Shown one piece after another: positions 8,801-27,302 of a stretch of 30,586 bases of DNA. The notes below the pieces were generated by a model. That model had not been told where the DNA came from, ran no database searches, and was given only the letters and a program-made list of their open reading frames with translations. This DNA is from a virus: the IMG/VR virus record IMGVR_UViG_3300044627_005999, positions 1 through 30,586 of that record. The stretch is one strand, 5' to 3'. Made by a program: the position numbers and the translations under genes. Position 1 is the stretch's first letter. Each line of letters begins with the position of its first letter.

Positions 8801-8898
8801 ATGCGAAGGATGACAGAATGGCGGATCTTGTCTACAATCTTGACCAATTCGCATCCCCTGAATATCTTGATCTTCTGATGCAGAAAATAACTAATTAA
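5809..8898 (+). CDS. Large modular phage protein: extra N-terminal domain, shared Cys module, Arg/Pro-rich linker, C-terminal kinase-like domain
   Basis: 1029 residues. Unlike its paralogues it has about 115 extra residues at the front (beta-type MNLVFIIKNRDNTPFMVV, then a helix), which resembles a small upstream gene joined in frame. FKASSFISDQ and the shared module follow (core residues 140-199). Residues 200-720 are Arg/Pro/Ala-rich with repeated GLRGIADRLDGG-like helices. The C-terminus (about 770-1029) has kinase motifs: GYFLKKPD with candidate Lys804, an LLMDIFV hinge, a catalytic loop Asp895-Arg896-His897...Asn900, and a canonical Asp913-Phe914-Gly915. The GGAAAG stretch upstream is a modest ribosome-binding site. 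The kinase domain is clearly diverged from the one at 2608-5358. Family level PI3/4K- or HipA-like; the target is unknown. Confidence 0.85.
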   Translation: MNLVFIIKNRDNTPFMVVSTTPEGSTFKPMTEDAKELVGILREEYAKTPITKPELVQSMDASKIIEGPSPSGTAVQKKVASLTEIQSEPIELKNLPVLSISEVLLSEFSDAEFKNVLTFKASSFISDQTRSSAHFEIKGVRAVWDPSLSIPGTNRRGGFRCPVGTRYGGQITDRFGRSCGWGVARRIANQIADIGERLEQRDDDKRKRRLDRRNARMMRRLGGVAETGRVEGGLRGIADRLDGGDASKPRVGRGAVAETDGIDGGWRNVARGLVGQRRVPNRQASPEIEAPSARVPRNRRRDVLPETAPTPTPKPRPARRPAPAGQRRPQPRPQARPRVAPQPANVDVLTARDASDASETEDFKPYVLRKYGEYAKRVREIREGGGNAGMLTRREWYEINKNNLRDAWKDAHGRSAPLDFEPPAPRNRRPQNNRRRRRQATAQGAGRSASRKPTANDVPEPAPAKPVRRRGAKRRPAGVSDELWNEYKDYVAMEERRNNSAISFTRWAQAQRDLGRNINFPARPARRPAAKPNAVDKPQIELSSKWKKNTDGTWERNGYKLTATFNADGKLEKFVLQEPYGNSFEMGYGGPNTKRDINNFAEYIYGIAGGSSAEPDFASESGENVVSPPRAPARQRGRNAPQLKMNNLVDNHYTELPKLQPDDGKFVAVRVGNKGINTLADARRYRGSLADIPDEFLLDVIQKRTHKDRGAMSPNVVDAVRSVFPSADDAEVFQIMKRLSTNFRRSLNEAPPAIDEDTKKLIKALKDKNIEFIEVPASSGITSPLYYFHLSDDPAKWGRGYFLKKPDRDWEGMRNGKKVSQHAELIGNILAKQIGFANGAPRLVKGSNNNPFLLMDIFVNNAEGKVAGRYSPGNVTDAKSRFFNGALNAIMNVADRHNGNGDQIKGNGAIPLDFGRALFGRKSASEQMQYLSRLMMDQASWGGYTKRLNGKVGAARTREINAIRAELQADIALAAENMRVGLRRVNEMNQAYDALDIDAKDDRMADLVYNLDQFASPEYLDLLMQKITN
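6226..6405 (+). repeat. Shared module, copy 2 (core)
   Basis: Residues 140-199 of the 1029-aa protein. The protein sequence is nearly identical to the copies at 2692-2871 and 9264-9443, although codons differ throughout (for example the codons of IPGTNRRGG). That indicates old duplicates held by selection on the protein. Confidence 0.9.
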
Positions 8899-8910
8899 GG
8901 GAAAATGATT

Positions 8911-9180
8911 ATGAAAAAACTTATTGGGGTAATTTCAAACTTTGGTTTTGGCATTTCGTGCGACGGTAAAAATGTTGAAGTGTTCGGCTCTGGCGATACA
9001 GCAGAGTCAATCAAAAAACTTATTGATGATCCAGAAAGTAGTTACAGCCAATTCGTCAAGAATGGGACGATGGATGATCCAGTTGGATATTGGATTACAT
9101 CTGCGCAGAACTTTGAATATGAGACAATTCCATACTCGCAAGAAAACTTGGATATGATGAAAGCGAAATTCAGCGAATAA
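8911..9180 (+). CDS. Small phage protein coupled to the 1163-aa modular gene
   Basis: 89 residues, unrecognised. Two ATGs occur, at 8905 and 8911. AAGGG at 8897-8901 is 9 nt from the second and only 3 nt from the first, so 8911 is preferred. The start MKKLIGVISNFGFGISCDG is hydrophobic and could be one strand pair or a weak amphipathic segment; I do not see a clear signal peptide. The last base of the stop is the A of the next ATG (TAATG), so translation of the 1163-aa protein is probably coupled to it. This is the third small gene placed just before a large modular gene. Chaperone, adaptor and minor capsid roles are all open. Confidence 0.75.
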   Translation: MKKLIGVISNFGFGISCDGKNVEVFGSGDTAESIKKLIDDPESSYSQFVKNGTMDDPVGYWITSAQNFEYETIPYSQENLDMMKAKFSE

Positions 9181-12100
9181 TGCTTCAGAATATTGTTGAC
9201 TTTAAAGCAAAATCGTTTCTTAGTGAACAGAACACGTCCACGATTGCTTACGAAGTTAAGGCTGTTCGCGCCATGTGGGATCCAAGCCTTTCCATTCCCG
9301 GCACCAACCGTCGTGGTGGCTGGCGATGCCCAACAGGAACACGATACGGTGGACAGATCACCGATCGTTTTGGTCGGTCTTGTGGTTGGGGAGTGGCGCG
9401 ACGCATCGCTAATCAAATATCAGATATCGGTCAACGCTTGGAGAATGTTGATGATGCTCGCCGTGGTCGTCGTATTGCTCGTCGTGAACGCCGAATACTT
9501 GCAAGACTTAATCCTGAAGGCGGTGGCGCTGGTCGTCTTGAGCAAGGTTTGCGTGGTGTCGCAGATAGATTAGACGGCGGAGGAACGCCAAGCCCTCGTG
9601 GTGCGCGTAGGAGAACTGTTGTTGCACGACCACCATCAGTTGATACACCTGAAGCACCTAGGGAATTGACACCTGCACCTCGCCAACAGCGCAGAAGGCG
9701 TGCACCGAATGTTAGAGATTCAGAACAACGACGCATGGATCGCGAAATTGAACAGCCCGGTGCGCCACGAACAGGCGAAGCACCTGCTCGCCCTGCCCGT
9801 AGACGTCAACCTGCGAGACCACGGGGTGAAGGAAATCTTCGTGAATCAGAACAACGAAGAATGCAACGCGAAATTGAACAGCCGGGTGCACCAAGAACTG
9901 GTGAAGCGCCTGCTCGCCGTCGCCGTCGTGCCGTAGTTGAAGCAACAAAGAAACCTAAAGCACCAACACGCCAAGCAGATGAGACCGATCCGCTTGCAGT
10001 AGCAGAGCGTGATCTTAACGAAGCACGAGACATGTTGCAGATGATGCGACAGAACAGTGCGGCGCCACAAGCAATCAGGCGTCAACGAGAAAAAATAGTT
10101 AAGTTGGAAGAAGAGGTAAGGCGTCTTCAGCCTCCACGCACAGTTGTTGAACCAAAAGTCGTTAAGCCTCGTCGCCCTAGGGCAAACCCTGACAGGAACG
10201 ACATTGGTGCTCTACTTGATGCTGAATCGGAAGAGCGTCGTGCCGTAGCAGAACCTAAACGCAGAAAACCACAACCCGGTAATAGCGATAATGCTGCGCG
10301 TTCGGAAGAGTTGCGACAAAACCGAGTGGCAATGGAACAGGCTGTTCTTGCTGATGCGAAAAAGAGGCAACGAGCCCAAAAGTTAGGTCGCAAAGTTGAT
10401 GTTGACAAAATACTTAAAAACGCAAATTCAAGAGAATATGTTAACTACTTAGAAGAAAGAGTTATTAAAGAACAACGTCTTGAAGTTATAAACAACTCCG
10501 AAAACTTCCCATCTGGAAGCGAAGCGATGCGCGATAAGTTGCGTCAAGCGAAACAGCGTATTGATGCAGCGAATGTACGAATTGAGAAACTACAACAGGC
10601 TATAGATGATGGAAAACTTAACGACAACGACTATATAGAGATTGATGGCGTTCTTTTTAATATGGCGCGTGTAAAAACACTTATCGCCGATCACCGCGAT
10701 GGGTGGCGGGAAGTCGCATATGCGCTTGAGTCACGCCCTTCTATAAACCCAAATAACGCTCCTGCACCACTCGGTGTTCCTCTTCTAGAGAATGATGCTT
10801 TTGACAATTTTGTACGAGGTTGGATACCTGCGATAGGTGACGATCTAGATGCAGAAGAACGAGAGGTGATGAGGGCACAGTGGGACGCTGAAGAAGAACC
10901 GATCAATGATGTCAGAAGATTCTTTAGGCGCAGGATTCTTGATGGAGATTTTGGCGAGCCCGAAGATCTGAGAGAACGAATTGCTCTAAACTTACAGGAA
11001 ATTCGTGAGGCTCAAAGCCGAATGGACGGCGATGTTGAACTGATTCAAGATGGCGCCGCAACTGGTCAAAGAAGAGCAGATGCATTAAATAGGATTGTTG
11101 TTAATGCTCAGGATAGGCGCAGACGCGTTCTTGAAAATGAATTCTTTGAACAGGCATTACAAAATGTTGCACCTGAATCCTCACCGAAACCTAAAACCAA
11201 ACCAAAAACTAAACCGACAACGAAGCCAACTCCAGCCCCTCAGGGAAATGCAGACGCTCCGAAGAAACAAAATGGAGCAGAGAACGCCCCCACGGAAATA
11301 GCCTATAAACCTCTTGAATTCAAACCTGCGTTTGACGCAGACAGGAACAGAGAAGTTGAAGAAAAACTTCTGGCAATCAATAACCCTACTGAGTTAGCAA
11401 AAATGATTGCAGAACTTGACAAGTTGAAATTCAATCATGGTGCCGCGCAACAGGCACGGCTTAATGATCATCACAATGCTTTGGATAACGCACTCAAGGA
11501 TATTGCTCGTGGTAAATCGTTAGATGATGTGATGGAAGACTACTGGGATAATAATGACGGTAGCGTTCAGGCAAACATAAAGATCGCCAGAAGAAAAGCA
11601 CAATACGACGAAGAGTGGAGACTCTTCCAAGGAGGCGCAAATAACATCAGAGAGTTGGATCAGGCAAACAAACTCCTAGTCAGAGAACAAGCATCTTTTG
11701 AACTGAGCAAAAGATTTGAAAAAGATCTGAAAAATGCGATCGCTCGCAAAGAGCAAGGTTTTGTTGTCAATGAGAATGATTCAAACTTGGCAAAAATAAC
11801 TCCTGATGATGTAAAAGCACAGATTGACGCCGATATAGGTAAAGCAATATCAAAACGTGGCAACAAGTTGACCAACTATCTTAAAGAAAGATTCCCTGAA
11901 GGTGGTGCTAAGCCACAGTATAGAGATATGACACCAGAAAAATGGCAACAGATGTCCCCATCGCAGAAGAAGTCATACATCATGGAAGCCTATTCTCATC
12001 CACTCATCAAGGGTGCTAACGGAAAGTTGTACAAAGTATCAGTAACCGATTACCGTGAAGGTGGCGATGGGAAAATCATCCTTATGACATCTTTTGATGA

Positions 12101-12671
12101 AATTGATACAAACGGGCGTGTCGTTAGATCTGGTATCGCTTCATCTACAAGAACAATTTATCATGGTGCTAATTATGCAGACGACGCAAAGCATGTTTAT
12201 CAAGACTCTCTCTTCGTACGATCAGACATAGATAAAGCAGCCGATCTTGCAACAATCTATAATCAAACCGCATTTACTTACCTGAAAGCAATCGGCATCA
12301 ACAAGGCTAAAGTTGGTCCTGCTGAGGATGGGAAATACGTTTGGGCAAGAGTTGGTTTCAAAGAGGAACTAGGTGGCATGAACAGAGTTCATTACGATAG
12401 ATTTGAAGATGCATTGAAGTTCTACAAAAACTTCGGACCAGGTGGATTGATATCTTCAGACGAACAATACATGCGCGTCAAGAAATTCGTTGAGGCTGGA
12501 CGCGCAGGGCGCAAATACAGCCATCAAGATGCAATATTCTTGATTGATGACGGCAATATTGCGGACAAAGCAAGACGACAATACATTAAACACTGGTTTG
12601 TGGAGAATGCACCTCTAAGTGGTGCGGTTCTGAGTTTCGGAGAACAAAAAATTGGCGCACAGGTACGCTAA
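9180..12671 (+). CDS. Giant modular phage protein: shared Cys module, coiled-coil and KP-rich linkers, possible GNAT-like C-terminal domain
   Basis: 1163 residues, start overlapping the upstream stop (TAATG). FKAKSFLSEQ and the shared module occupy residues 8-88. Two copies of the RESEQRRM...PGAPRTGE repeat lie at about 177-246. Charged coiled-coil segments follow (about 275-320 and 400-480), then a KPKTKPKTKPTTKPTP spacer around 665-680, and more helical sequence. From about residue 945 the sequence becomes globular: strands around KLYKVSVTDYREGG and IILMTSFDEID, a helix LATIYNQTAFTYLKAIG, then KYVWARVGF. The last pattern resembles the end of GNAT acetyltransferase-like domains seen in phage head proteins; this is a weak call. 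No kinase loop is present, so the C-terminus has been exchanged relative to its paralogues. Confidence 0.8.
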   Translation: MLQNIVDFKAKSFLSEQNTSTIAYEVKAVRAMWDPSLSIPGTNRRGGWRCPTGTRYGGQITDRFGRSCGWGVARRIANQISDIGQRLENVDDARRGRRIARRERRILARLNPEGGGAGRLEQGLRGVADRLDGGGTPSPRGARRRTVVARPPSVDTPEAPRELTPAPRQQRRRRAPNVRDSEQRRMDREIEQPGAPRTGEAPARPARRRQPARPRGEGNLRESEQRRMQREIEQPGAPRTGEAPARRRRRAVVEATKKPKAPTRQADETDPLAVAERDLNEARDMLQMMRQNSAAPQAIRRQREKIVKLEEEVRRLQPPRTVVEPKVVKPRRPRANPDRNDIGALLDAESEERRAVAEPKRRKPQPGNSDNAARSEELRQNRVAMEQAVLADAKKRQRAQKLGRKVDVDKILKNANSREYVNYLEERVIKEQRLEVINNSENFPSGSEAMRDKLRQAKQRIDAANVRIEKLQQAIDDGKLNDNDYIEIDGVLFNMARVKTLIADHRDGWREVAYALESRPSINPNNAPAPLGVPLLENDAFDNFVRGWIPAIGDDLDAEEREVMRAQWDAEEEPINDVRRFFRRRILDGDFGEPEDLRERIALNLQEIREAQSRMDGDVELIQDGAATGQRRADALNRIVVNAQDRRRRVLENEFFEQALQNVAPESSPKPKTKPKTKPTTKPTPAPQGNADAPKKQNGAENAPTEIAYKPLEFKPAFDADRNREVEEKLLAINNPTELAKMIAELDKLKFNHGAAQQARLNDHHNALDNALKDIARGKSLDDVMEDYWDNNDGSVQANIKIARRKAQYDEEWRLFQGGANNIRELDQANKLLVREQASFELSKRFEKDLKNAIARKEQGFVVNENDSNLAKITPDDVKAQIDADIGKAISKRGNKLTNYLKERFPEGGAKPQYRDMTPEKWQQMSPSQKKSYIMEAYSHPLIKGANGKLYKVSVTDYREGGDGKIILMTSFDEIDTNGRVVRSGIASSTRTIYHGANYADDAKHVYQDSLFVRSDIDKAADLATIYNQTAFTYLKAIGINKAKVGPAEDGKYVWARVGFKEELGGMNRVHYDRFEDALKFYKNFGPGGLISSDEQYMRVKKFVEAGRAGRKYSHQDAIFLIDDGNIADKARRQYIKHWFVENAPLSGAVLSFGEQKIGAQVR
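9264..9443 (+). repeat. Shared module, copy 3 (core)
   Basis: Residues 29-88 of the 1163-aa protein, at exactly the same distance from the start as in the 916-aa protein. It has a few substitutions against the other copies (M, T, S and Q at single positions) and keeps both Cys and the GVARRIANQI helix. Confidence 0.9.
9708..9917 (+). repeat. Two tandem copies of the RESEQRRM...PGAPRTGE linker repeat
   Basis: Copies at 9708-9791 and 9834-9917 encode nearly the same 28 residues (NxRxSEQRRMxREIEQPG then APRTGEAPAR), separated by a short Arg/Pro spacer. A third copy is in the 916-aa gene at 3175-3255. Nucleotide matches are long but interrupted at third positions. Confidence 0.85.
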
Positions 12672-12679
12672 GGGATTTT

Positions 12680-12937
12680 ATGAAACTAACAAACGAACAA
12701 AAATCTGTTATCAGAGAAGAACTCTTCCGAAACGTCAAGAACGGAGAAACACGATCAAAAATAATTTCAACTGCTTTCGGTTTCGCCCATGAAAACGGTG
12801 AAGATGGCGACACAGAAAAAATGGTTAGTTACCTGATGAATAATAAAGACAAAATTGATGAACTTTTTATGGAATTTGGTATGTCTATGCCATACTCATC
12901 TGAGACGGAACCTGAAAAGAAAAAAACTAAAAAGTAA
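12680..12937 (+). CDS. Small helical phage protein coupled to the 735-aa gene
   Basis: 85 residues, unrecognised. AAGGGA at 12670-12675 is a fair ribosome-binding site for the ATG at 12680. The protein looks all-helical and charged (MKLTNEQKSVIREELFRNVK; a second helix around KMVSYLMNNKDKIDELFMEF) and ends in a lysine-rich tail. Its stop shares one base with the next start (TAATG). It differs in sequence from the other small genes of the array but occupies the same position before a large gene. Confidence 0.75.
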   Translation: MKLTNEQKSVIREELFRNVKNGETRSKIISTAFGFAHENGEDGDTEKMVSYLMNNKDKIDELFMEFGMSMPYSSETEPEKKKTKK

Positions 12938-15144
12938 TGTCAGAAAATAAAGAAAAAACCACTAGGGATCAGGCGCTTCGTGTTGCCCGCATGCTCGGGT
13001 GTCAGGGCGCTCATGAGACCGATGCTGGTTGGATGCCTTGCTCCTCACATGAGGAATATGAGGGTATCAAAAAGGGTAAAGAAGAGTATTTAAAGGTTCG
13101 TGCTTCAAATAACAAAAAACCTTTGCCAAAGATGGTTCAACGGACAAAGCGGTTAGAAACAAAGTCTGATGCATATTACGAGAATCGTGCTGATGCTGTT
13201 GCTATTTCTAAGGCTCGTGGTTGTGGTGGTGTGCGAACTGTCATGCTTGCAGGGAAAAAATATTATGCGGTTTGTAACCATAAGGCACCTAAACGGGGTT
13301 GGGAGAACCTTGATGAGAAACCTATTTCTGGTATCGCAACCTTGCCGGGTGGTGGGCTTGTCACTGGCTCGTTTTCGGGTAAGTCTCTAGGTCGCCCTAT
13401 TGGCGGTGTGTCCAATTTTGATGGTGACGGTGATGGGAAGGTTACTGGTCCTGACGGAGAAGACAATATTCCTGCGCCCAAAATACCTAAAAAAATGTTT
13501 CACGGAAGCACGGTGAAGTTAAATGTCGGGGACTACTTGCTCCCACCTTCAGAAACTGGAGTTAAGCCACGGGCACATCCAGACATTGACGCAATTGAGT
13601 TCAACAACACAAACTATGTCTACTTAACTTCAAAACTTGAAGATGCTCGTGGTTATGGATCTGACGTCGTGAAACCCGGACAGACTATATACATCTACGA
13701 AGTTGAACCATCTGACGATGTTGAAGAAGATCCAGAGAATGAAATGTTTGGGGTGGAAGGCGGATTTCGTTCTCGTAAAGCAAAAATAAAAAAGATAGTA
13801 GCAACTCTTACGAGTAATTCTGACGGATCTCTAGAAGAAAAGGGTTTCGTTAACTTTGTTAGCCGTTCCACAGACCCTGACACTTTCAGTGACCCTGAGT
13901 CTGCCCGTATTCGTGCACGCAACCTTGGATGTATAGGTATTCGCCGTTACACGGCACGGGATGGCAAACTTGTTTGGCTTCCATGTACGAATGTTTCTGA
14001 CTACAACCGTGTCACAGGTATCCGTGGGGATAACAGCCCTAGGAATAATCCTCGCCGTCAGGGTTCGGGTTTCAAAAAGAAATCAGAAACAGAGGAAAAA
14101 GCACTTGGTCGTTCAATTGGTGGCTATAGAAGAATGTTCAAACCAATCGGTGGGGTAGGCGCACTTGAAGATGGAGACGGAGACGGTTTTGCTACTGGTG
14201 CAGATGGCGAAGATAACATTCCTGTAGCAAAAGTGCCAAAACCTAAAAACAAAAAACCAGCGCCCAAGAAAAAAGCACCAAAGAAAAAGTTAACACCACA
14301 ACAACAGCGCGAACGAACCAGATGGGAAAACCAACTTCGGCGAGACGAACTTGCTAAAAGGAAAAGAGAGATTGAATTTGAGATAGAGCGTCGTAAACCA
14401 GATGTCCCTCGTCTCCCACCGGGCATGGTCAACATTGAAAAAGCCCGAGAAGTTAAAAAACATTGGGATGACCTTGTTGACAATCTTTTTGAACAAGCAG
14501 AATGGGGCAACGACGAAAAGGCTCAGGAAAAGAAAAAACGGAAGTTGTTGGCTCAGGCTTATGTTGCCACGGCGCGCAAGTTTAAACTTTCTCCCAAGCA
14601 AGTACAGCAACACATGAACGAAGTTGGTAGAAGAGTGTACGACGATTTGCCATGGGTTTGGCGTCCAGAAGATCTACCAGTAAGAGACATCATGTTGGTG
14701 CGAGGTGCAAAACCATCACAAAAAGATGCGCTAAGCGATGGCATCATTTCCTTCAAAGGTGTCCCTAAGCCAAAGAAAAAACCGCCGACCGTGACAAGCA
14801 CAGACATCAACAACCTTGCTGTCATGGTACGCAAAAATAACGCTAAAGCAAAAACTTCTGCCAAAACGAACCTCCGTGACCTCAAGGTGGTATTCGTTAG
14901 AGGGCTGGCTGACGGCGGTCGGGAAGAAGCAAATAATCGGGTCTCAAAGTTCCTATCGTTGCTGAACTCCGACAAACCTAAAGATGTAAAGTATTCAGAA
15001 GATAATGATCTTTTGCCTATTGACCACCCATGGAAAAACCGTAAAACAGCCAAGAAATGGGCTGATTTTGAAGAAGGCGAATACGGTGTCAAATACGCTG
15101 GCGGATGCTGTCCAAAGGTAGTTAAAAGATACCGTCCAAAATAG
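12937..15144 (+). CDS. Large phage protein with an Arr-like ADP-ribosyltransferase domain, three LGC repeats and two EF-hand-like Asp/Gly loops
   Basis: 735 residues. Residues about 187-290 read like rifampin ADP-ribosyltransferase (Arr): FHGS with His189, GDYLLPP, NYVYLT with Tyr229, then IYEVEP with EEDP (Asp265) and a FRSRKAKIKKIV end. Arr uses a His-Tyr-Asp set at these places, so the NAD site looks intact. Three Cys repeats (ARMLGCQG...WMPC at 16-36, SKARGCGG...YAVC at 90-110, ARNLGCIG...WLPC at 325-352) surround it. Two Asp-rich loops, FDGDGDGKVTGPDGEDNIP (161-179) and EDGDGDGFATGADGEDNIP (411-429), look like single-loop calcium sites, each preceded by a LGR(P/S)IGG stretch. The rest is a Lys-rich helical tail. 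It lacks the shared module of its neighbours. Target and virion location are inference; it is the last gene before the capsid promoter. Confidence 0.85.
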   Translation: MSENKEKTTRDQALRVARMLGCQGAHETDAGWMPCSSHEEYEGIKKGKEEYLKVRASNNKKPLPKMVQRTKRLETKSDAYYENRADAVAISKARGCGGVRTVMLAGKKYYAVCNHKAPKRGWENLDEKPISGIATLPGGGLVTGSFSGKSLGRPIGGVSNFDGDGDGKVTGPDGEDNIPAPKIPKKMFHGSTVKLNVGDYLLPPSETGVKPRAHPDIDAIEFNNTNYVYLTSKLEDARGYGSDVVKPGQTIYIYEVEPSDDVEEDPENEMFGVEGGFRSRKAKIKKIVATLTSNSDGSLEEKGFVNFVSRSTDPDTFSDPESARIRARNLGCIGIRRYTARDGKLVWLPCTNVSDYNRVTGIRGDNSPRNNPRRQGSGFKKKSETEEKALGRSIGGYRRMFKPIGGVGALEDGDGDGFATGADGEDNIPVAKVPKPKNKKPAPKKKAPKKKLTPQQQRERTRWENQLRRDELAKRKREIEFEIERRKPDVPRLPPGMVNIEKAREVKKHWDDLVDNLFEQAEWGNDEKAQEKKKRKLLAQAYVATARKFKLSPKQVQQHMNEVGRRVYDDLPWVWRPEDLPVRDIMLVRGAKPSQKDALSDGIISFKGVPKPKKKPPTVTSTDINNLAVMVRKNNAKAKTSAKTNLRDLKVVFVRGLADGGREEANNRVSKFLSLLNSDKPKDVKYSEDNDLLPIDHPWKNRKTAKKWADFEEGEYGVKYAGGCCPKVVKRYRPK
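13381..13473 (+). repeat. LGRPIGG plus calcium-loop-like repeat, copy 1
   Basis: It encodes KSLGRPIGGVSN followed by FDGDGDGKVTGPDGEDNIP (residues 149-179). Asp at 162, 164, 166 and 173 with a spaced acidic residue fits an EF-hand or dockerin-type loop. It is repeated at 14101-14223 in the same gene. Confidence 0.7.
14101..14223 (+). repeat. LGRSIGG plus calcium-loop-like repeat, copy 2
   Basis: It encodes ALGRSIGGYRRMFKPIGGVG, then EDGDGDGFATGADGEDNIP (residues 389-429). It matches copy 1 at 13381-13473, with an extra IGG unit. The two copies bracket the ART-like domain and the third Cys repeat. Confidence 0.7.
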
Positions 15145-18219: not shown

Positions 18220-18378
18220 TTATAGGTACTTGGCGTTTACCATTTCTAGATATCTTAAATCGCTTTTAAGGTAATCAATCTGTTTCTTTAGATCTGCTAC
18301 CTCTATACGTAGTTTTTCTAATTCGCTATCAACCAAATGGTTAAATCCTTGTTCCGCTAAGTGGGTTTTCTCAAGCAT
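18220..18378 (-). CDS. Small coiled-coil protein, 52 aa
   Basis: I translated this by hand. It begins MLEKTHLAEQGFNHLVDSEL and continues with ELEKLRIEVADLKKQIDYL, a clear heptad coiled coil, ending NAKYL. It fills the gap between the convergent Cys-motif gene and the oxygenase gene and is the last gene of the minus-strand operon. The ribosome-binding site is poor (GTAGAG directly before ATG), so expression would depend on coupling with the oxygenase gene 17 bases upstream. Confidence 0.5.
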   Translation of the reverse strand: MLEKTHLAEQGFNHLVDSELEKLRIEVADLKKQIDYLKSDLRYLEMVNAKYL

Positions 18379-18395
18379 CTCTACACATTAGTTCT

Positions 18396-18956
18396 TTATT
18401 CAACTAGTAAAAAGAATGTTGAAGAGAATCTTTTGCCCTTGGTTACAGGTCTAACCCAATGCCACAGGTTCGCATCAAAGAATATGCACGAATTCGGTTG
18501 TGGTTTTAAGGTGAATAAATTCCTCAACTCGGTGTTGTCTACAGGGGTTTGAGGCAAAGGTGGTCTACTGCTTGTGAAGCAAACCTCCCCACCTTCGTAG
18601 TCGTCGTTCAAGTAGTAGACGGCAGAAGCATTCGGGGAGAACCCAACCTCTGGATCGTCTGGATAATCCTTGTTGGGGACAGAGTCTTGGTGAACACCCA
18701 TTCCTCGGTTCTCATAAAAAGCAAGGACATTCCCACCTTTTATCTTGAGAAGATTTTGCTGACAGTGAAGCGGGTAAAGGGTATTGATTTTTTTACGAAC
18801 TTCCCCAGTCTCAACACCATCAATGTTAACTAAATGTGGGGTTTGTTCACTTGAACTGCCATCACGGCTAAGAGCCTGATCAAGAATGTCTTTGAAACGA
18901 TCTTCTTCCAAAAAATTTGTTAAATAAACAAACGGGCGGAATGTTTCAACACCCAT
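18396..18956 (-). CDS. 2-oxoglutarate/Fe(II)-dependent oxygenase (prolyl 4-hydroxylase type)
   Basis: 186 residues from the ATG at 18956, which overlaps the upstream stop by one base (TGATG); a longer start at 18971 is possible. The jelly-roll motifs are in order: GVHQDS with His89 and Asp91, SAVYYLNDDYEGGEVCF, CIFFDANLWHWVRPV with His166, and KGKRFSSTFF with Arg176 for 2-oxoglutarate. The full metal and cosubstrate set is present. The family hydroxylates protein side chains or small molecules; the target here is unknown. It is coupled to the methyltransferase gene and lies in an operon of modifying enzymes. Confidence 0.9.
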   Translation of the reverse strand: MGVETFRPFVYLTNFLEEDRFKDILDQALSRDGSSSEQTPHLVNIDGVETGEVRKKINTLYPLHCQQNLLKIKGGNVLAFYENRGMGVHQDSVPNKDYPDDPEVGFSPNASAVYYLNDDYEGGEVCFTSSRPPLPQTPVDNTELRNLFTLKPQPNSCIFFDANLWHWVRPVTKGKRFSSTFFLLVE

Positions 18957-19543
18957 CAGAGCGTTTCCCACCTCATATGTTTCTTGTATACATCAGGGCT
19001 GATAACCGTTGGGTCAACCCACCAATCCTCGTGAATCGTTCTCACAACAAGCGTGTAGCCAAGACAGTCAAGGATTTCCCGTTGTGCGTCTCTTTGTCCT
19101 GTATTTCGGAAATACATGTTCGCATCATGCTCAAAGGTAATAATTGAAAACCTGTACTGCGTTAAAGGAACAGTGATTAGACCTAAAAGGGTGGTGTAAT
19201 GATTCCCGTTAGGTCTCGTAGCCCTGTCATAGCCAGTATCAATATCTACTTGTAGATAGTCAATTTGTTTTGGGAAATGGTTGTTATGAAAGTAACTGAT
19301 GTAATCAAAGTTCAAAGCGTCACCCATGCAAGGATTTGACCTGTTCCCAATGAATTCTTCACGACGCTCATCAACTAGTTCAAACGAGACACCCTGCCAC
19401 CCAAATTGCTTTTCTAAAACATTGGTATTGCTACCGTCAGATGAATGAAACGCGCCTAGTTCAACATAAAAGCCATCTTTTTTATAATCAAGAATGTCTA
19501 AAACAAATGCCTCTTGATTACTGCTACCTGTGTATCGGTTCAC
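18956..19543 (-). CDS. FkbM-like SAM-dependent methyltransferase
   Basis: 195 residues from a GTG start overlapping the previous stop (GTGA). GFYVELGAFHSSDGSNTNVLEKQFGW is split in the usual way into motif I (FYVELGAFHSSDGSNT) and the following helix. GVSFELVDERREEF supplies the acidic residue expected to bind the SAM ribose, and IDYLQVDIDTGYD is the motif IV region. These features match FkbM-type O-methyltransferases, often acting on sugars or other small molecules. The length of about 195 is short but the Rossmann core seems complete. Neighbours are an oxygenase and a coiled-coil protein. The substrate is unknown; cell-surface sugar or nucleotide modification are both possible. Confidence 0.8.
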   Translation of the reverse strand: MNRYTGSSNQEAFVLDILDYKKDGFYVELGAFHSSDGSNTNVLEKQFGWQGVSFELVDERREEFIGNRSNPCMGDALNFDYISYFHNNHFPKQIDYLQVDIDTGYDRATRPNGNHYTTLLGLITVPLTQYRFSIITFEHDANMYFRNTGQRDAQREILDCLGYTLVVRTIHEDWWVDPTVISPDVYKKHMRWETL

Positions 19544-19770
19544 TTCTTGAAACCGTTTTTCCGCACTAGATCGCCGACTGTTTTTATGGTTGAGCCAAGT
19601 GAACTTTTAATGTCCTGATTAGTTATGTTGACTTTCACGGTTTCTCTTTTTGCTGAATTCAACTCAGACTGAAGAATGCGAATCATCGTTTCAAGTTCTT
19701 TTAGTTTTTGGTTTGTTTCTTCAACAAACTCCTCAAAACGATTCTCCATATTGTCTCCGCCGTAAGGCAT
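19540..19770 (-). CDS. Small coiled-coil protein, 76 aa
   Basis: Start chosen at ATG 19770 because GGAG lies 6 nt upstream and the previous gene ends at 19772. A longer frame from 19944 would overlap the upstream gene by about 170 bases and is rejected. An inner ATG at 19749, also preceded by GGAG, is possible. The sequence NRFEEFVEETNQKLKELETM and what follows form a heptad coiled coil, then a short basic end. It couples to the methyltransferase by a 4-base overlap. Function unknown. Confidence 0.65.
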   Translation of the reverse strand: MPYGGDNMENRFEEFVEETNQKLKELETMIRILQSELNSAKRETVKVNITNQDIKSSLGSTIKTVGDLVRKNGFKK

Positions 19771-19771
19771 T

Positions 19772-20038
19772 TCATTCTCCGTTTTCTTGTTTTTCAACAA
19801 TCCTGATCGCTCGTGAACATATTCTATCCCATTGTTCTGGATGGTTGTCTTTAATCCATTTAATGGCGATCTGTGAACGCTTGTTAGCAACGATTTGGTG
19901 AAACCTAGCCTGAGACTTTCCTGCTGAAGTTTTTCTATACCCACGCATGTATTCGGCGGCTGCTTTTTTGCACAGTACGCATCTACATTTAGAGTTCGTG
20001 TATGTGGCGTAAAGCCCGTGAATTATTTCGTCTGCCAT
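19772..20038 (-). CDS. Small Cys-motif actinophage-type protein
   Basis: 88 residues from the ATG at 20038, overlapping the end of the deacetylase-fold gene by 16 bases. Near the N-terminus is HGLYATYTNSKCRCVLCKKA, close to the HGxxxxYxxxxCRCxxCxxA pattern that I associate with short proteins of actinobacterial phages. His and three Cys could bind one zinc ion. The remainder is basic and helical (MRGYRKTSAGKSQARFH). It may bind nucleic acid. The overlap implies coupled translation in the minus-strand operon. Confidence 0.7.
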   Translation of the reverse strand: MADEIIHGLYATYTNSKCRCVLCKKAAAEYMRGYRKTSAGKSQARFHQIVANKRSQIAIKWIKDNHPEQWDRICSRAIRIVEKQENGE

Positions 20039-20970
20039 GACCAACCATAGATAGTTCGGAGATGTGTTTTTGCAACATCATCTCGTGTTGTTTTACCGCC
20101 AGAATATCCGCCTGCTAAAGCGAAAATAGCCTTGTTGGAACCAATGAAATTAGAGACAATTTTCTCTCGTTCCGCAATGACGCTTTCGTCTATCCCATGA
20201 GATCCTACTGGATCAATACCTGCGTTATAGATGAACAGTGTCTTATCTGTGATGAACGGTTCTGCCAAAGTCAAGGCATTCCTGATTTCTTCTAAATAGT
20301 CTTCTTCACGGCTAAGAACATGCAGGGAAGCCCAGGTATCGTTTTCGTCAATGTCGTACCCGTCAAACCAATTGGTTGATAGGTCAATGTGTCTGATTGG
20401 TTTAACTGATGTTTGAAAGTTCTTGTTGAATTCTTTCAAAAAGTCCATAGTTCCACCGCCACAGTGAGCATCAAAATCAAGGACGATAGGTTCAAACCCT
20501 TGCTGATATGCGTAGATTGCTGACAGCGCAATTCCGTTGATCGTGCAGAAACCTGCACCGCTACCTCTTGAGGCATGGTGTAGTCCTGAAGAGAGACTCC
20601 CGCTTCTATTGGATCCTGCCTTTATCTCGTCTACCGATGCCACTAAACCGTGCGTGTGTGCGCGAGCGAACTTGTAAGTGTTTTTACACCAACTAAAACC
20701 TTGGCTTTGCGCTAGGTGTGGGTCGTTGTTTGTCTTCAGTGCCTCAACATATTTTGGGGTAAGCCATTTGTTGATGAGACGATCCGTTACAGAAATGTCC
20801 GTGATCTGTTCAGGGTCAACAATTTTGATTTCGGGTATGTCTTTAAGCAAACGAACCCTTTCGGCAATATCGTTATCCGAATTGATCAGATTGACAATAT
20901 TGTTTGACTTTCGTGATGTGTCAAAATCATGCTGAATGCTTGTGTATGTTTCGTTCCAAAAAACTTTCAT
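20023..20970 (-). CDS. Histone deacetylase-superfamily amidohydrolase
   Basis: 315 residues from the ATG at 20970; an upstream start would overlap the phosphatase gene. The arginase/deacetylase fold motifs are all present: LHHASRGSGAGFCTINGIAL with the His131-His132 pair, VLDFDAHCGGGT with zinc ligands Asp167 and His169, IYNAGIDPVGSHG with Asp253 as third ligand, and LAGGYSGG with Tyr289. In this family the enzymes remove acetyl or other acyl groups from lysine side chains or polyamines by zinc hydrolysis. The active site looks intact. A deacetylase homologue is unusual in a phage; a possible substrate could be the Lys-rich protein at 26914-27219, polyamines, or host proteins. All three are inference. 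Confidence 0.9.
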   Translation of the reverse strand: MKVFWNETYTSIQHDFDTSRKSNNIVNLINSDNDIAERVRLLKDIPEIKIVDPEQITDISVTDRLINKWLTPKYVEALKTNNDPHLAQSQGFSWCKNTYKFARAHTHGLVASVDEIKAGSNRSGSLSSGLHHASRGSGAGFCTINGIALSAIYAYQQGFEPIVLDFDAHCGGGTMDFLKEFNKNFQTSVKPIRHIDLSTNWFDGYDIDENDTWASLHVLSREEDYLEEIRNALTLAEPFITDKTLFIYNAGIDPVGSHGIDESVIAEREKIVSNFIGSNKAIFALAGGYSGGKTTRDDVAKTHLRTIYGWSWQTK

Positions 20971-20974
20971 CAAA

Positions 20975-21502
20975 TTACCAACCCATTTCTGTGTGGTTAT
21001 TGCGTATCTCCAAAAGGGTTGTACCAAGATTGAAATAGTTATCTAAATGTTTTACCATCAGTGTGTTTGGCGCGAAAGTACGACGAGCACCACGATAGAA
21101 ACTTTTCTCAATCGGATGCTGTTTTTGTAGCGTCAAAAATGCTTCAAGTGGATCTACGCCATTTGCTATTGCCACACCCCATGCTGTTGCTGTAGACCTA
21201 GATATTCCTGCGTGGCAGTGAACCAACAACTTGGGAACGCCAACACCGAATTCAATTAGTTCAACAACATCGTCAAATGTGGGTCCACCATTGCTTTCAA
21301 ACATGGTGTCCCTAAATTCAACGACCTTATGTATAGGGTGTTTGAAGTCACGCACTTCGTCCTTGAACGGACCGGCGGTGATTACGGCGTCATATTCAAG
21401 GCATTGGCTTCGTGCTTCTTGAAGGTTTCTGACGGTTGGCATGGCTATTAGTGAGGTTTCCATATATTCGCTTTCTTTAGTATTTGTAGGTATATTACTC
21501 AT
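20975..21502 (-). CDS. Dual-specificity/tyrosine phosphatase-like protein
   Basis: 175 residues if the ATG at 21502 is used. That ATG lies 6 nt after a -10-like box, so the message may be leaderless. An inner ATG at 21463 is possible, and the frame is open back to 21562. The signature VHCHAGISRSTATAWG contains the HCx5R loop, with Cys96 as nucleophile and Arg102 binding phosphate. An upstream Asp65 (FRDTM) may be the general acid. The preceding segments (LEYDAVITAG, HKVVEFRDT) fit the dual-specificity fold. The protein should remove phosphate from protein Ser/Thr/Tyr or another phospho-substrate. It is the first gene of the minus-strand operon, 4 bases before the deacetylase gene. Interesting alongside the kinase-like genes at 1-8898. 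Confidence 0.88.
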   Translation of the reverse strand: MSNIPTNTKESEYMETSLIAMPTVRNLQEARSQCLEYDAVITAGPFKDEVRDFKHPIHKVVEFRDTMFESNGGPTFDDVVELIEFGVGVPKLLVHCHAGISRSTATAWGVAIANGVDPLEAFLTLQKQHPIEKSFYRGARRTFAPNTLMVKHLDNYFNLGTTLLEIRNNHTEMGW

Positions 21503-21508
21503 ACCGTA

Positions 21509-21538
21509 AGTGTAGCCCCCATGTGTGAGGTTTGGCAA
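21509..21538 (-). promoter_or_regulatory. Candidate promoter for the minus-strand enzyme operon
   Basis: Read on the minus strand: TTGCCA (21538-21533), 18 bases, TACACT (21514-21509), then 6 bases and ATG at 21502. The -35 matches TTGACA at five of six positions. The distance would start the RNA at or next to the ATG. Confidence 0.5.
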
Positions 21539-21671
21539 CCCGACAAAACCCTCTAGATACAAGGAATATATATTTAAGTTTTTTTATATAAAAAGTTGTT
21601 TTTCTCCGACATGTTAGTTAGTCTCTCTTTTCAGGAAGACATAAACCACTAGACAGAAATAGGAGCCCAAT

Positions 21672-22307: not shown

Positions 22308-22335
22308 TTACTTAAAATACTTGGTGCTGTACTAT
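22308..22335 (+). promoter_or_regulatory. Weak candidate promoter before the ribonucleotide reductase gene
   Basis: TTACTT (22308-22313), 16 bases, TACTAT (22330-22335). Only the -10 is reasonable. It lies 42 bases before the ATG at 22378. Read-through from the gene at 22010 would serve as well. Confidence 0.25.
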
Positions 22336-22377
22336 TGTTCTCCACCCATATTGCCTAGTGCGCCGAAAGAGGATGTA

Positions 22378-24306
22378 ATGACTTCGCTGTTATCCCAAGA
22401 ATTTGTAGACCGATACAAAACACAGACACCACCATGGGGATTCAGCGGTCTTGGCGAGGTTGTCTACCTGCGCACATACTCTCGCCGGATTGAAGAGTTG
22501 AACCGAAACGAAACTTGGTTGGAAACAGTACAGCGATGTGTAAACGGTGCAGTAGAAATTGGAACACCACTCACACAAGATCAAGCAGAAAAACTTTTTG
22601 ACCATGTATTTCACCTGCGTGGATCGTTCTCTGGTCGTGCCCTATGGCAACTTGGAACCCCGTTGATCAAGCAGTTCAATGCCGCTTCGCTGAATAACTG
22701 CTATTTCGTAAACATAGAAAAAGTAGAAGATTTTGAGTTCCTCTTTGATCACCTGATGCTTGGCGGTGGAGTTGGATTCTCCGTTGAACGAGCAAAGATC
22801 CATGACCTGCCAAAAGTTTTGCCTAATGTGAAAATCACGCACGACCGTTCAAATGATGCAGACATCATTGTTCCTGACTCTCGTCAAGGTTGGCGACGAC
22901 TCCTGCACAGCGTACTTAAATCATATTTTGATACAGGTAAATCTTTCTCCTATTCAACGATCCTTATTCGCGAATTCGGTGCACCACTAAAAACATTCGG
23001 CGGAACAGCAAGCGGACCAGGTGCGCTAGTTGACGGAATCGCAGACATTTGCAAAGTTATGGAAGCACGCGAAGGAAAGAAACTCCGCTCAATTGATGTT
23101 CTTGACATTTGCAACATCATTGGTCGCGTTGTTGTTTCAGGATCATCACGACGCTCAGCACAGATCGCTATCGGCGACCCTGATGATGTTCTGTTTTTGC
23201 GAGCAAAGAACTGGGCTTCGGGGGATATCCCGGGTTACCGAGCAAACTCAAACAACAGCATCTACGCCGACTACTACGACCACATCATGCCAGAACTATG
23301 GAAGGGTTACACGGGTGGCGGAGAACCATACGGTTTGGTGAATCGTCGCCTCGCACGAAAGTTCGGACGCCTCAAAGAAGAACGGGCAGATAAAACAATT
23401 GAAGGGTTCAACCCTTGCGCGGAAATCGGTTTAGGTGATGGGGAGTCATGCAACCTTGCAACCATATTCCTACCGAACATTTGCAGTATTGAACAATTCA
23501 AAGAACTGTCTGAACTTCTGTACATGGTTCAGAAGCAAATAACTCGCCTCACTTATCCTTACGCAAAAACAAATGCGATTGTTGCTAAAAATGCGCGTCT
23601 AGGACAAAGCGTCTCTGGCGTTCTACAGGCTTCAGAAGAACAAGTTTCTTGGTTGGATGAGGCGTACCGCAACCTTGACGAATTTGATGTCAACTATTCA
23701 AAGGAAAAAGGTTTCCCTCGTTCTGTCAGGTTGACAACTGTTCAGCCATCAGGGACGCTCTCATTGCTCCCCGGGATCACTCCGGGCATTCATCCCGCAT
23801 TCGCACCGTTCTACATCCGTAGGGTGCGTTTTGGAGCGTCTGACGCCCTTGTAGCAGGCTTGCGTGCACGAGGACATAAGGTTGTTTGGGACATTGGTAT
23901 TGATGGTCGCGAAGACCACACTCGCTATGTTGTTGAGTTCCCGTGCAAGTCACCAGATAACGCTGTACTCGCCGAAAACATGACTGCCGTAGAGCAACTT
24001 GAATGGGTGAAAAAGATGCAAACCGAATGGGCTGATAATGCCGTTTCGGTGACTGTTTACTACCGCAAGGAAGAACTTGAATCAATCAAAGAATGGTTGT
24101 CCAAGAACTACGACACAGGCGTCAAATCAGTATCTTTCCTTTTGCATGCCGACCACAACTTCCCATTGCCACCATACGAGCAAATCACACAAAGTGAATA
24201 CGATGCGCTCGTAAAGAAAGTGGACACATCAGTTCCTTTGAGTCAGGCAAGCGGTATTGATCTTGACCTTGATAATTGCGCGACAGGTGCTTGTCCAATC
24301 AAGTGA
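22378..24306 (+). CDS. nrdJ: Adenosylcobalamin-dependent (class II) ribonucleoside-triphosphate reductase
   Basis: 642 residues from the ATG at 22378, which has GAGG 5 nt upstream; the in-frame TTG at 22321 has none. Expected residues are present: Cys108 in NNCYFVN and Cys358 in ESCNLATI as the substrate-reducing pair, NPCAEIG with Cys347 as the thiyl radical site and Glu349, and a C-terminal CATGACPIK with Cys634 and Cys639 as the shuttle pair. There is no ATP-cone. Length and motifs fit the monomeric class II type known from Lactobacillus and mycobacteriophages. It makes deoxynucleotides for phage DNA synthesis with or without oxygen and needs host B12. No cobalamin riboswitch is visible upstream. 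rtpR is an equally used name. Confidence 0.95.
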   Translation: MTSLLSQEFVDRYKTQTPPWGFSGLGEVVYLRTYSRRIEELNRNETWLETVQRCVNGAVEIGTPLTQDQAEKLFDHVFHLRGSFSGRALWQLGTPLIKQFNAASLNNCYFVNIEKVEDFEFLFDHLMLGGGVGFSVERAKIHDLPKVLPNVKITHDRSNDADIIVPDSRQGWRRLLHSVLKSYFDTGKSFSYSTILIREFGAPLKTFGGTASGPGALVDGIADICKVMEAREGKKLRSIDVLDICNIIGRVVVSGSSRRSAQIAIGDPDDVLFLRAKNWASGDIPGYRANSNNSIYADYYDHIMPELWKGYTGGGEPYGLVNRRLARKFGRLKEERADKTIEGFNPCAEIGLGDGESCNLATIFLPNICSIEQFKELSELLYMVQKQITRLTYPYAKTNAIVAKNARLGQSVSGVLQASEEQVSWLDEAYRNLDEFDVNYSKEKGFPRSVRLTTVQPSGTLSLLPGITPGIHPAFAPFYIRRVRFGASDALVAGLRARGHKVVWDIGIDGREDHTRYVVEFPCKSPDNAVLAENMTAVEQLEWVKKMQTEWADNAVSVTVYYRKEELESIKEWLSKNYDTGVKSVSFLLHADHNFPLPPYEQITQSEYDALVKKVDTSVPLSQASGIDLDLDNCATGACPIK

Positions 24307-25503: not shown

Positions 25504-26880
25504 CTACCCCTCAGAAGCAACCTCAAAAAGAGACAACTGACTATCCGCTAACTCGCGGGCAATTCTCAACTTTTCCTTCTCATCAGACAAACGCAATGTT
25601 GCGATCTGTGCATACTCAGGGTTCAACTCACAGCCCAAATACGATCTACCCAACTTTTGGGCTACAACCCCTGTGGTGCCAGCACCAAAGAACACATCCA
25701 ACACCGTGCATGGGACAGTTTCAGCGGTTTCGCATTTGCAAGCCTTTTCCCAACCGATTGTGTCGGTTTGAGAATAACCTGCGTCTCCTTTGCCATTTAT
25801 TTCCCCATACGCGCCTTCGTAGTTGTTTGGACGATAACGAGGATCGTCCACTGGAAGTTCGTTTCGGGCTATCCTCTTGCGGTTCACTTGACGAACCAAC
25901 GGTGACCCACATTGAGCACAACATCCCATTTCGCTCGTACCAGCGGAGATGCAGGGCTCTATCAGATCCTGAGGGAATGTTGCGAAGTGCGCTCCCTTGA
26001 ATGGCTTCGTTGTCACCGTCCATACTGACCTCTTGTTCCTGAATGCTCCAGTTGACCCATGCATTGCATTTGAAATGCCTGCATCTTTACGACTGTCCGC
26101 ACGAGACCCCCTGTCATCATAAGCATATTTTGCTGGTTCCTTAATCGCTTCACTATCAAAAAAATAATGAGACTTCTTTGTTAGCAAGAACATGTATTCG
26201 TGTGCTTTGGTGCACCTGTCACGAACAGACTCAGGCATCGGGTTTGGTTTAGCCCAAATAATGTCTTGACGCAAATACCAGCCATCTGCTTGCAAGGCAA
26301 AAGCAACACGCCAAGGAATACCAACTAAATCTTTAGGTTTAAGATCGCCATCATCGCGACCAATTTTTGCTCTGAAATCTTCGTTCTCTCCACCAGCGTT
26401 GGAAGCGTTAGTAGAAGCGATTGACTGCTTCCACCCATTCCCGTTGCTACCCGCATAAGAGTCGCCTAGGTTCAACCAGAGCGTTCCGTCTTCTCGTAAA
26501 ACTCTGCGAACTTCACGGAAAACTTCCACCATATGTTCTACATATTCGTCAACGGTTGGCTCTAAACCAAGTTGGCTATCCTTACGCATTGCGCCACAAC
26601 GAGGACATTGAACTTTATAAATGCCGTCACCGATAGCGCCTTCAAGAAGTTTCTGTCCAGTTGAGCAACTCTCACTGAACTTACTATCTCGTTTATGAGA
26701 GCATTCAGGATCGCCACCAATCCAAGTGGCAGTTCCATAATCCCTTAGACCCCAATACGGTGGTGAGGTGACAACGCAGTGAATGCTGTTATCCGCCAAA
26801 GACGCAAGAGTTTCCCGTACATCACCAAGGAGAATGTTTGAATCAATAACAAATGGCAGCACAGTCTCGTCGTTTGTCAT
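25504..26880 (-). CDS. DNA methyltransferase (N4-cytosine or N6-adenine) with zinc-ribbon-like insertions
   Basis: 458 residues. TSPPYWGLRDYG (Ser39-Pro40-Pro41-Tyr42) is the catalytic motif IV, and DVFFGAGTTGVVAQKLGR with YLGCELNPEY near the C-terminus is the SAM motif I. The order IV then I makes it a beta-class amino-methyltransferase; SPPY is most usual for N4-cytosine but occurs in N6-adenine enzymes. Two Cys clusters, CSH...C and CPRCG at about 59-110 and CCAQCG at about 320, look like zinc ribbons. GAGGGG upstream is a good ribosome-binding site. No restriction endonuclease adjoins, so it is an orphan enzyme, probably protecting phage DNA or regulating packaging or expression. Confidence 0.92.
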   Translation of the reverse strand: MTNDETVLPFVIDSNILLGDVRETLASLADNSIHCVVTSPPYWGLRDYGTATWIGGDPECSHKRDSKFSESCSTGQKLLEGAIGDGIYKVQCPRCGAMRKDSQLGLEPTVDEYVEHMVEVFREVRRVLREDGTLWLNLGDSYAGSNGNGWKQSIASTNASNAGGENEDFRAKIGRDDGDLKPKDLVGIPWRVAFALQADGWYLRQDIIWAKPNPMPESVRDRCTKAHEYMFLLTKKSHYFFDSEAIKEPAKYAYDDRGSRADSRKDAGISNAMHGSTGAFRNKRSVWTVTTKPFKGAHFATFPQDLIEPCISAGTSEMGCCAQCGSPLVRQVNRKRIARNELPVDDPRYRPNNYEGAYGEINGKGDAGYSQTDTIGWEKACKCETAETVPCTVLDVFFGAGTTGVVAQKLGRSYLGCELNPEYAQIATLRLSDEKEKLRIARELADSQLSLFEVASEG

Positions 26881-26893
26881 TTTTCCCCTCGTA

Positions 26894-26909
26894 AACCCCT
26901 CATGGGGTT
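26894..26909 (-). other. Short hairpin between two minus-strand genes
   Basis: AACCCC, loop of 4, GGGGTT, directly after the Lys-rich gene and just before the methyltransferase ribosome-binding site. No T run follows, so it is more likely an RNA processing or attenuation hairpin than a terminator. Confidence 0.4.
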
Positions 26910-26913
26910 CAGA

Positions 26914-27219
26914 CTACTTGCTAATCTTGAACCACGCAAGCATTTTCTTACGAAGAGGCAAAGATTTAACATCGTTTACCCTGATAACAGCAGTCTGTTC
27001 AGCCATTACCTTCATAAACTTTTCGGCATTTGCAAATTGCTGTTTTGGTTCACTGATTTTTGCCAATAAACGATCAGAGTCTTCAGGACGAACATTTGTT
27101 GTCTTCTTTGAAGCAGATGCTTTCTTGACGGGAGCCTTCTTGGCAGGAGCCTTTTTTGCTGATGCCTTCTTGACAGGAGCCTTCTTTTTGTTTGACTTTT
27201 TTGGTTGTTTTGATGTCAT
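26914..27219 (-). CDS. Lysine-rich histone H1-like phage protein
   Basis: 101 residues. The first 45 are a tail of Lys-Lys-Ala-Pro/Ser units (KKAPVKKASAKKAPAKKAPV and so on) like the C-terminal tails of histone H1 and of bacterial AlgP/HctB-type proteins. The rest is a small helical domain (AEKFMKVMAEQTAVIRV, PLRKKMLAWFKISK). Such tails bind DNA or RNA without sequence specificity. It lies upstream of the methyltransferase on the same strand. The tail lysines are natural sites for acylation, which makes the deacetylase homologue at 20023-20970 a possible partner; inference only. The 5' gap before the divergent gene at 27303 is 83 bases. Confidence 0.8.
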   Translation of the reverse strand: MTSKQPKKSNKKKAPVKKASAKKAPAKKAPVKKASASKKTTNVRPEDSDRLLAKISEPKQQFANAEKFMKVMAEQTAVIRVNDVKSLPLRKKMLAWFKISK

Positions 27220-27302
27220 ACAAAAACCCTAGTACAAAATAAATAGCATAAATGTAACCCCCATCATTTTGGAGAAGTGACCATACGGTAGGGTTTCCTA
27301 AC

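Follow-up and report, generated by a model that had tools for sequence, protein, structure and literature searches.

The 30.6 kb virus record IMGVR_UViG_3300044627_005999 (hereafter, the window) encodes a phage major capsid protein (PF05065), and no DNA-level match was found between it and known phages. Its minus strand carries a run of seven genes (21502–18220), which specify, in this order, a phosphatase of the dual-specificity phosphatase (DSP)/protein tyrosine phosphatase (PTP) superfamily, a protein with the histone deacetylase (HDAC) fold, a small CRCxxC protein, a coiled-coil small protein, an FkbM-like methyltransferase, a 2-oxoglutarate (2OG) oxygenase and a second coiled-coil small protein. 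An initial annotation of the window had taken the four enzymes as one operon, chained by overlaps of 1–16 bases, which would act on one metabolite or surface group or else counter host signalling and defence. All four enzyme genes are indeed present in this place; the run consists, however, of two modules joined by small genes, and is not one four-enzyme system.

The DSP (175 amino acids; open reading frame (ORF) at 20975–21502, minus strand) has the P-loop HCHAGISRS, in which the HCxxGxxR active-site loop (H95-C96-x-x-G99-x-x-R102) is invariant in 12 phage relatives. A family profile made from its relatives recovers PTP/DSP structure chains, while the match to PF00782 (E value of only 0.0023) stays under the Pfam cut-off.

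The HDAC gene (20023–20970, minus strand; ATG start) specifies 315 amino acids, which match PF00850 with an E value of 3.8e-18 (66.3 bits against a cut-off of 27.9). The catalytic set H131, H132, D165, D167, H169, D253 and Y289, i.e., the HH dyad, the zinc ligands of DxDxH plus a further D, and the catalytic Tyr, is invariant across 35 relatives, which confirms the complete deacetylase-type active site noticed initially. Homology with one relative, L004, stops at the ATG start. The AlphaFold2 model (pLDDT of 90) aligns with Vibrio cholerae HdaH (9gky_A) at a Z-score of 32.7 over 285 residues, in the arginase/deacetylase fold. By its sequence and model, the gene product is assigned to the classical Zn-dependent HDAC/deacylase family, and it is a predicted deacylase. 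Invariant basic residues at its N-terminus were considered as a phosphate site, which we do not claim: in other HDACs, this segment also coincides with the region of the acetate channel.

The nearest structures belong to the Cluster 5 classical deacylases (VcHdaH; PMC11532494) and the class IV HDAC11-like enzymes, with whole-chain Z-scores of 31–33 and shared catalytic residues. The window HDAC differs from them in its low identity (18–20%), in having DxDAHCGGGT for DxDxHHGxGT and in an invariant FDTxRK-type segment. The PADLOC search yielded no match for the DSP and HDAC of the window, nor for those of the bacterial locus L281 described below, and NCBIfam yielded none for the window proteins of the run.

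The overlaps of 1–16 bases are roughly right, but they do not chain the four enzymes directly. The DSP and HDAC genes are separated by a gap of 4 bp, and two small genes, overlooked initially like the second coiled-coil gene, stand between the HDAC and the methyltransferase. The gene for the 90-residue CRCxxC protein (19772–20038, minus strand), which is HNH-like or zinc-ribbon-like (phrog_8936, 1.5e-5; phrog_4234, 2.5e-4), overlaps the HDAC gene by 16 bp and occupies the slot after the DSP or HDAC in syntenic relatives. After a gap of 1 bp, it is followed by the gene for the coiled-coil protein (76 amino acids; 19540–19770, minus strand), which is kept in relatives. Its start was corrected from the sequence: a 134-aa ORF starting with GTG (19540–19944) was ruled out, as the conserved coiled coil starts at the ATG at 19770. 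The coil gene overlaps the FkbM-like gene by 4 bp, and the latter overlaps the 2OG gene by 1 bp. The second coiled-coil protein (52 amino acids; 18220–18378, minus strand), recognised from its sequence and its relatives, ends the run. Upstream of the DSP gene, the divergent intergenic region (21503–21671) is the putative transcription origin of the run, although promoter and terminator matches were no commoner than in shuffled sequences.

The genes of the minus-strand run are real and evolve under purifying selection. The ratio of nonsynonymous to synonymous substitution rates (dN/dS) is 0.03–0.26 between relatives where dS is measurable, dS being saturated in several pairs, and the synteny of the run is retained in relatives down to ~40% identity; on both grounds, the run is more than a chance grouping.

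The FkbM-2OG cassette

The FkbM-like protein (195 amino acids, GTG start; 18956–19543, minus strand) is a putative S-adenosylmethionine (SAM) methyltransferase, placed in the FkbM family only tentatively. The window protein itself has no Pfam match, PF05050 is weakly matched by 10 of 26 relatives (best E value 0.0014), and the model resembles SAM-methyltransferase folds with a TM-score of about 0.5; the family named in the initial annotation is, therefore, kept with reserve. The 2OG-Fe(II) oxygenase (186 amino acids; 18396–18956, minus strand) was recognised correctly: it matches PF13640 (4.8e-11; 43.9 bits against 27), and an HxD...H motif with the distal H/R can be read in its sequence.

In close relatives, the gene order is ribonucleotide reductase, two small genes, DSP, HDAC, CRCxxC, coil, the optional FkbM-2OG cassette, the second coil, SNase and capsid. 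With near-identical contigs merged by eye and the window counted, FkbM-2OG is present in five of 12 distinct sister lineages and missing in the other seven; both genes are absent from L004, L097, L100 and L101, and the second coil directly follows the first in relatives that lack the cassette. FkbM relatives at 65–73% identity occur in many unrelated viral contigs (240 loci, of which 80 were retrieved), in many cases beside 2OG genes. In 22 of 30 distinct FkbM loci (four from the window's clade), a co-oriented 2OG gene is no more than 1.5 kb away, as confirmed with PF13640 for a sample of these neighbours, and neither DSP nor HDAC was found at FkbM loci outside the window's clade. FkbM-2OG is, therefore, a module of its own, a separate, removable cassette inserted in some lineages. 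It resembles the FkbM-2OG modules of aquatic phages, the contigs of which differ from the window in lacking the DSP-HDAC pair.

The phosphatase-HDAC pair in phages and bacteria

A scan with an HDAC profile returned 74 viral loci. The DSP gene lies immediately upstream of the HDAC gene in the window's clade as well as in distant phages, the HDACs of which are 36–42% identical. An unrelated backbone, with DUF932-like, SSB and WhiB-like genes (WhiB assigned by eye), holds the pair in L139 and L141, where the two genes are 2 bp apart; the WhiB-like genes suggest actinobacterial hosts. On the HDAC tree, the window protein groups with phage proteins, within a clade to which copies from Acidimicrobiaceae and Ilumatobacteraceae also belong, a placement consistent with an acidimicrobial host; the phages carrying the pair probably have actinobacterial hosts. 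Neighbours that vary freely between relatives would have made the grouping proposed initially a matter of chance. This applies to half of it: the four-enzyme set is not kept, but the phosphatase and deacetylase recur together on no fewer than two phage backbones as well as at host loci.

Bacterial genomes carry the same HDAC subfamily. There, the HDAC gene adjoins a DSP gene in six loci (L182, L183, L206, L281, L287 and L294), and the two genes are divergent in three others (L285, L288 and L292); in these actinobacterial loci, the DSP belongs to a different subfamily from the phage DSP. DSP adjacency changes state at least nine times on the HDAC tree, six of them among bacteria alone. In L182 and L183, an ADP-ribosylglycohydrolase (ARG) gene (PF03747), the DSP gene and the HDAC gene are consecutive. 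L281 (2103–8641) has the order ARG-vWA, ARPP-1, DSP, HDAC, PD-(D/E)XK, unknown, HD_4, where the ARG domain matches PF03747 at 7.5e-44 and is joined to vWA (PF00092), and ARPP-1 matches PF20208 at 8.4e-61; judged by its domains, L281 is a conflict locus of the ARG-centred kind that includes an HDAC. ARG (PF03747) is also present in L294, which has a divergent NrtR-like Nudix regulator, and in L287, which has an NrtR-like Nudix transcription factor, while L187 reads ARPP-1, HDAC, SIR2_2, HD_4.

For one bacterial class, that of the L182 genome, we counted co-occurrence over 296 genomes, in which contigs of metagenome-assembled genomes are fragmentary. HDAC was found in 13 genomes and DSP in 26; 10 have both where 1.1 are expected (hypergeometric p of 1e-9), and six have HDAC together with ARPP-1 where 1.2 are expected (p of 4e-4). 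These p-values are too small, since some of the seeds of the DSP profile were host copies linked to HDAC, and since the genomes are related and, thus, not independent.

One further viral contig, L149, carries a host-type DSP gene (HCHMGINRAPS; 3294–4001) ~2 kb upstream of its HDAC gene (5992–6918), with WhiB-like and Fic-like genes, both assigned by eye, downstream. Rhodococcus phage E3 encodes a "putative histone deacetylase", gp202, of the same HDAC subfamily (34% identity, tblastn), which has other neighbours. We do not count E3 as another instance of the pair, as a DSP partner was not found there.

Candidate substrates and significance

ARG-centred conflict systems have been proposed to counter viral ADP-ribosylation, with R-P phosphatases that process ADP-ribose (PMC9503650, section 3.8); the text of that paper on these systems lists the phosphatase and does not mention an HDAC-fold enzyme. 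The bacterial loci described here share with them ARG, vWA, a phosphatase of the rhodanese/DSP superfamily, ARPP-1, an NrtR-like Nudix protein, a restriction endonuclease and HD. The window phage carries the phosphatase type, with its Cys-phosphatase P-loop, beside the HDAC; the ARG core gene (PF03747), ARPP and a Nudix or WYL regulator were not found among the window proteins scanned.

We propose that the DSP and the HDAC-fold deacylase would constitute a two-enzyme module acting on the same substrate class: a metabolite or adduct derived from NAD or ADP-ribose, for instance phospho- or O-acetyl-ADP-ribose, would lose a phosphate to the former and an acyl group to the latter. In the phage, the pair would pre-empt or reverse an ARG-centred host response or else recycle what infection produces, and FkbM-2OG would be a module apart, for the methylation/hydroxylation of some other target. 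An NAD/ADP-ribose substrate is the most economical guess because the host copies adjoin ARG, ARPP and a regulator of the ADP-ribose-sensing type, a context that also lends some support to the earlier suggestion that host signalling or defence is countered. That the pair strips phosphate and acyl from one substrate class, probably NAD/ADP-ribose-derived, as counter-defence or clean-up, appears quite possible to us, though somewhat short of probable. It is more doubtful whether the HDAC-fold enzyme is an unrecognised part of actinobacterial ARG-centred loci, where it and the phosphatase would act together on a substrate of the ADP-ribose type, and whether the phage pair is the corresponding counter-module.

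Several observations weigh against this proposal. Sirtuin and Macro families were not found in the 12 related phage records, no ADP-ribose enzyme adjoins the pair in the window, and the solved folds closest to the HDAC come from lysine or fatty-acyl deacylases rather than nucleotide enzymes. Identity between phage and host DSPs is only 15–19%, so that the shared substrate is something we infer. The two genes also occur apart: a reciprocal scan with the DSP profile showed the DSP gene followed directly by the CRCxxC gene, without HDAC, in L321–L331, while HDAC stands without DSP in L135 and L138, and alone in phage E3, where a DSP was not detectable. Each of the two can, thus, be lost singly from phages. 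The overstated co-occurrence p-values belong on this side of the balance, too. Moreover, GNAT matches in the phage search were marginal and a source of acetyl was, therefore, not found.

The missing sirtuin and Macro families and the nature of the nearest structures make the erasure of post-translational protein modifications a serious rival. The DSP would dephosphorylate the targets of Tyr/Ser/Thr kinases of the host, and the HDAC would deacylate the lysines of host proteins (metabolic enzymes, nucleoid proteins or the targets of acetylating toxins), by which the host is reprogrammed without any small-molecule substrate common to both enzymes. Proteins are the classical substrates of DSPs and HDACs, the nearest folds are the VcHdaH and HDAC11-like lysine deacylases, and bacterial relatives act as lysine deacylases (PMC11532494). 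Taken alone, protein erasure leaves unexplained why two DSP subfamilies are repeatedly paired with this HDAC subfamily, and why the host copies keep the company of ARG, ARPP and Nudix; we consider it possible, yet rather unlikely. If DSP and HDAC merely shared a slot by descent in one phage lineage, as loosely coupled accessory genes with no joint function, it would be understandable that a single syntenic backbone accounts for most phage pairs and that either gene is missing alone in some phages, such as E3 with its HDAC only. The pair occurs, however, among other neighbours in L139 and L141 and with another DSP subfamily in bacterial loci, and both genes occur in 10 genomes against 1.1 expected, which renders this explanation unlikely.

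Very unlikely, in our opinion, is an acetylpolyamine deacetylase that would release polyamines from their acetylated forms, for use in DNA packaging or translation. Giant viruses of the Imitervirales do carry acetylpolyamine amidohydrolases (PMC9992855), likewise virus-encoded amidohydrolases of the HDAC fold, and structures of such enzymes are among the closest to the window HDAC; their hosts are different, and the window has no polyamine context, no polyamine gene being seen nearby. Profile matches to acetylpolyamine amidohydrolases (cluster 4) start only beyond the stretch that holds the polyamine-specificity loop (L2), HdaH and HDAC11-like chains score slightly higher, and the linked phosphatase would be left unexplained. 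The most improbable explanation is the one given in the initial annotation, namely a single pathway of all four enzymes building or stripping one metabolite or surface group: it agrees with the co-orientation and the short junctions of the genes, but as the cassette is missing in seven of 12 sister lineages and recurs elsewhere without DSP or HDAC, the four-enzyme grouping is not conserved and such an operon is not supported.

On the plus strand, a segment at 13495–13740, inside the gene at 12937–15144, resembles an Arr-type ADP-ribosyltransferase (FHGS...VYLTS...Y; PF12120, 1.5e-5; NCBIfam rifampin_ARR, 1.6e-4, under the cut-off). The 735-aa protein that includes it is encoded upstream of the capsid gene, and the segment is present in L001 and replaced in L004. 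If it is real, the phage would possess an ADP-ribosylating domain, the type of activity against which ARG systems have been proposed to act. Also upstream of the capsid gene are three paralogues, large proteins encoded on the plus strand (2608–5358, 5809–8898 and 9180–12671) that share a near-identical N-terminal segment (DPSLSIPGTNRRGG...RCP.GTRYGGQITDRFGRSCGWGVARRIANQI). The plus-strand gene at 22321–24306 specifies an adenosylcobalamin-dependent class II ribonucleotide reductase, above the cut-off of NCBIfam TIGR02505. A plus-strand ORF at 26783–27232 overlaps the start of a DNA methyltransferase gene on the opposite strand, and it may be in part non-coding or frameshifted, since its matches in relatives fall in two frames. 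Another oxygenase, of the PhyH type (PF05721; 27943–28707, plus strand), has an 80% identical counterpart in L001 and none in L004.

What looked like a four-enzyme operon is, thus, a mosaic, and attention shifts to the DSP and the HDAC. HDAC-fold enzymes of phages are almost unstudied and usually labelled "putative histone deacetylase"; the repeated pairing with a Cys-phosphatase and the ARG, ARPP and Nudix company of the pair in bacteria suggest a testable substrate class. The HDAC is a candidate addition to a predicted anti-phage system for which no HDAC member has been reported. It may be a hitherto unreported HDAC-fold member of the ARG/R-P conflict network. The phage pair may be a borrowed or an opposing piece of the bacterial antiviral fight over NAD and ADP-ribose and, if so, its HDAC would be the first enzyme of this fold in the NAD conflict between phage and host.

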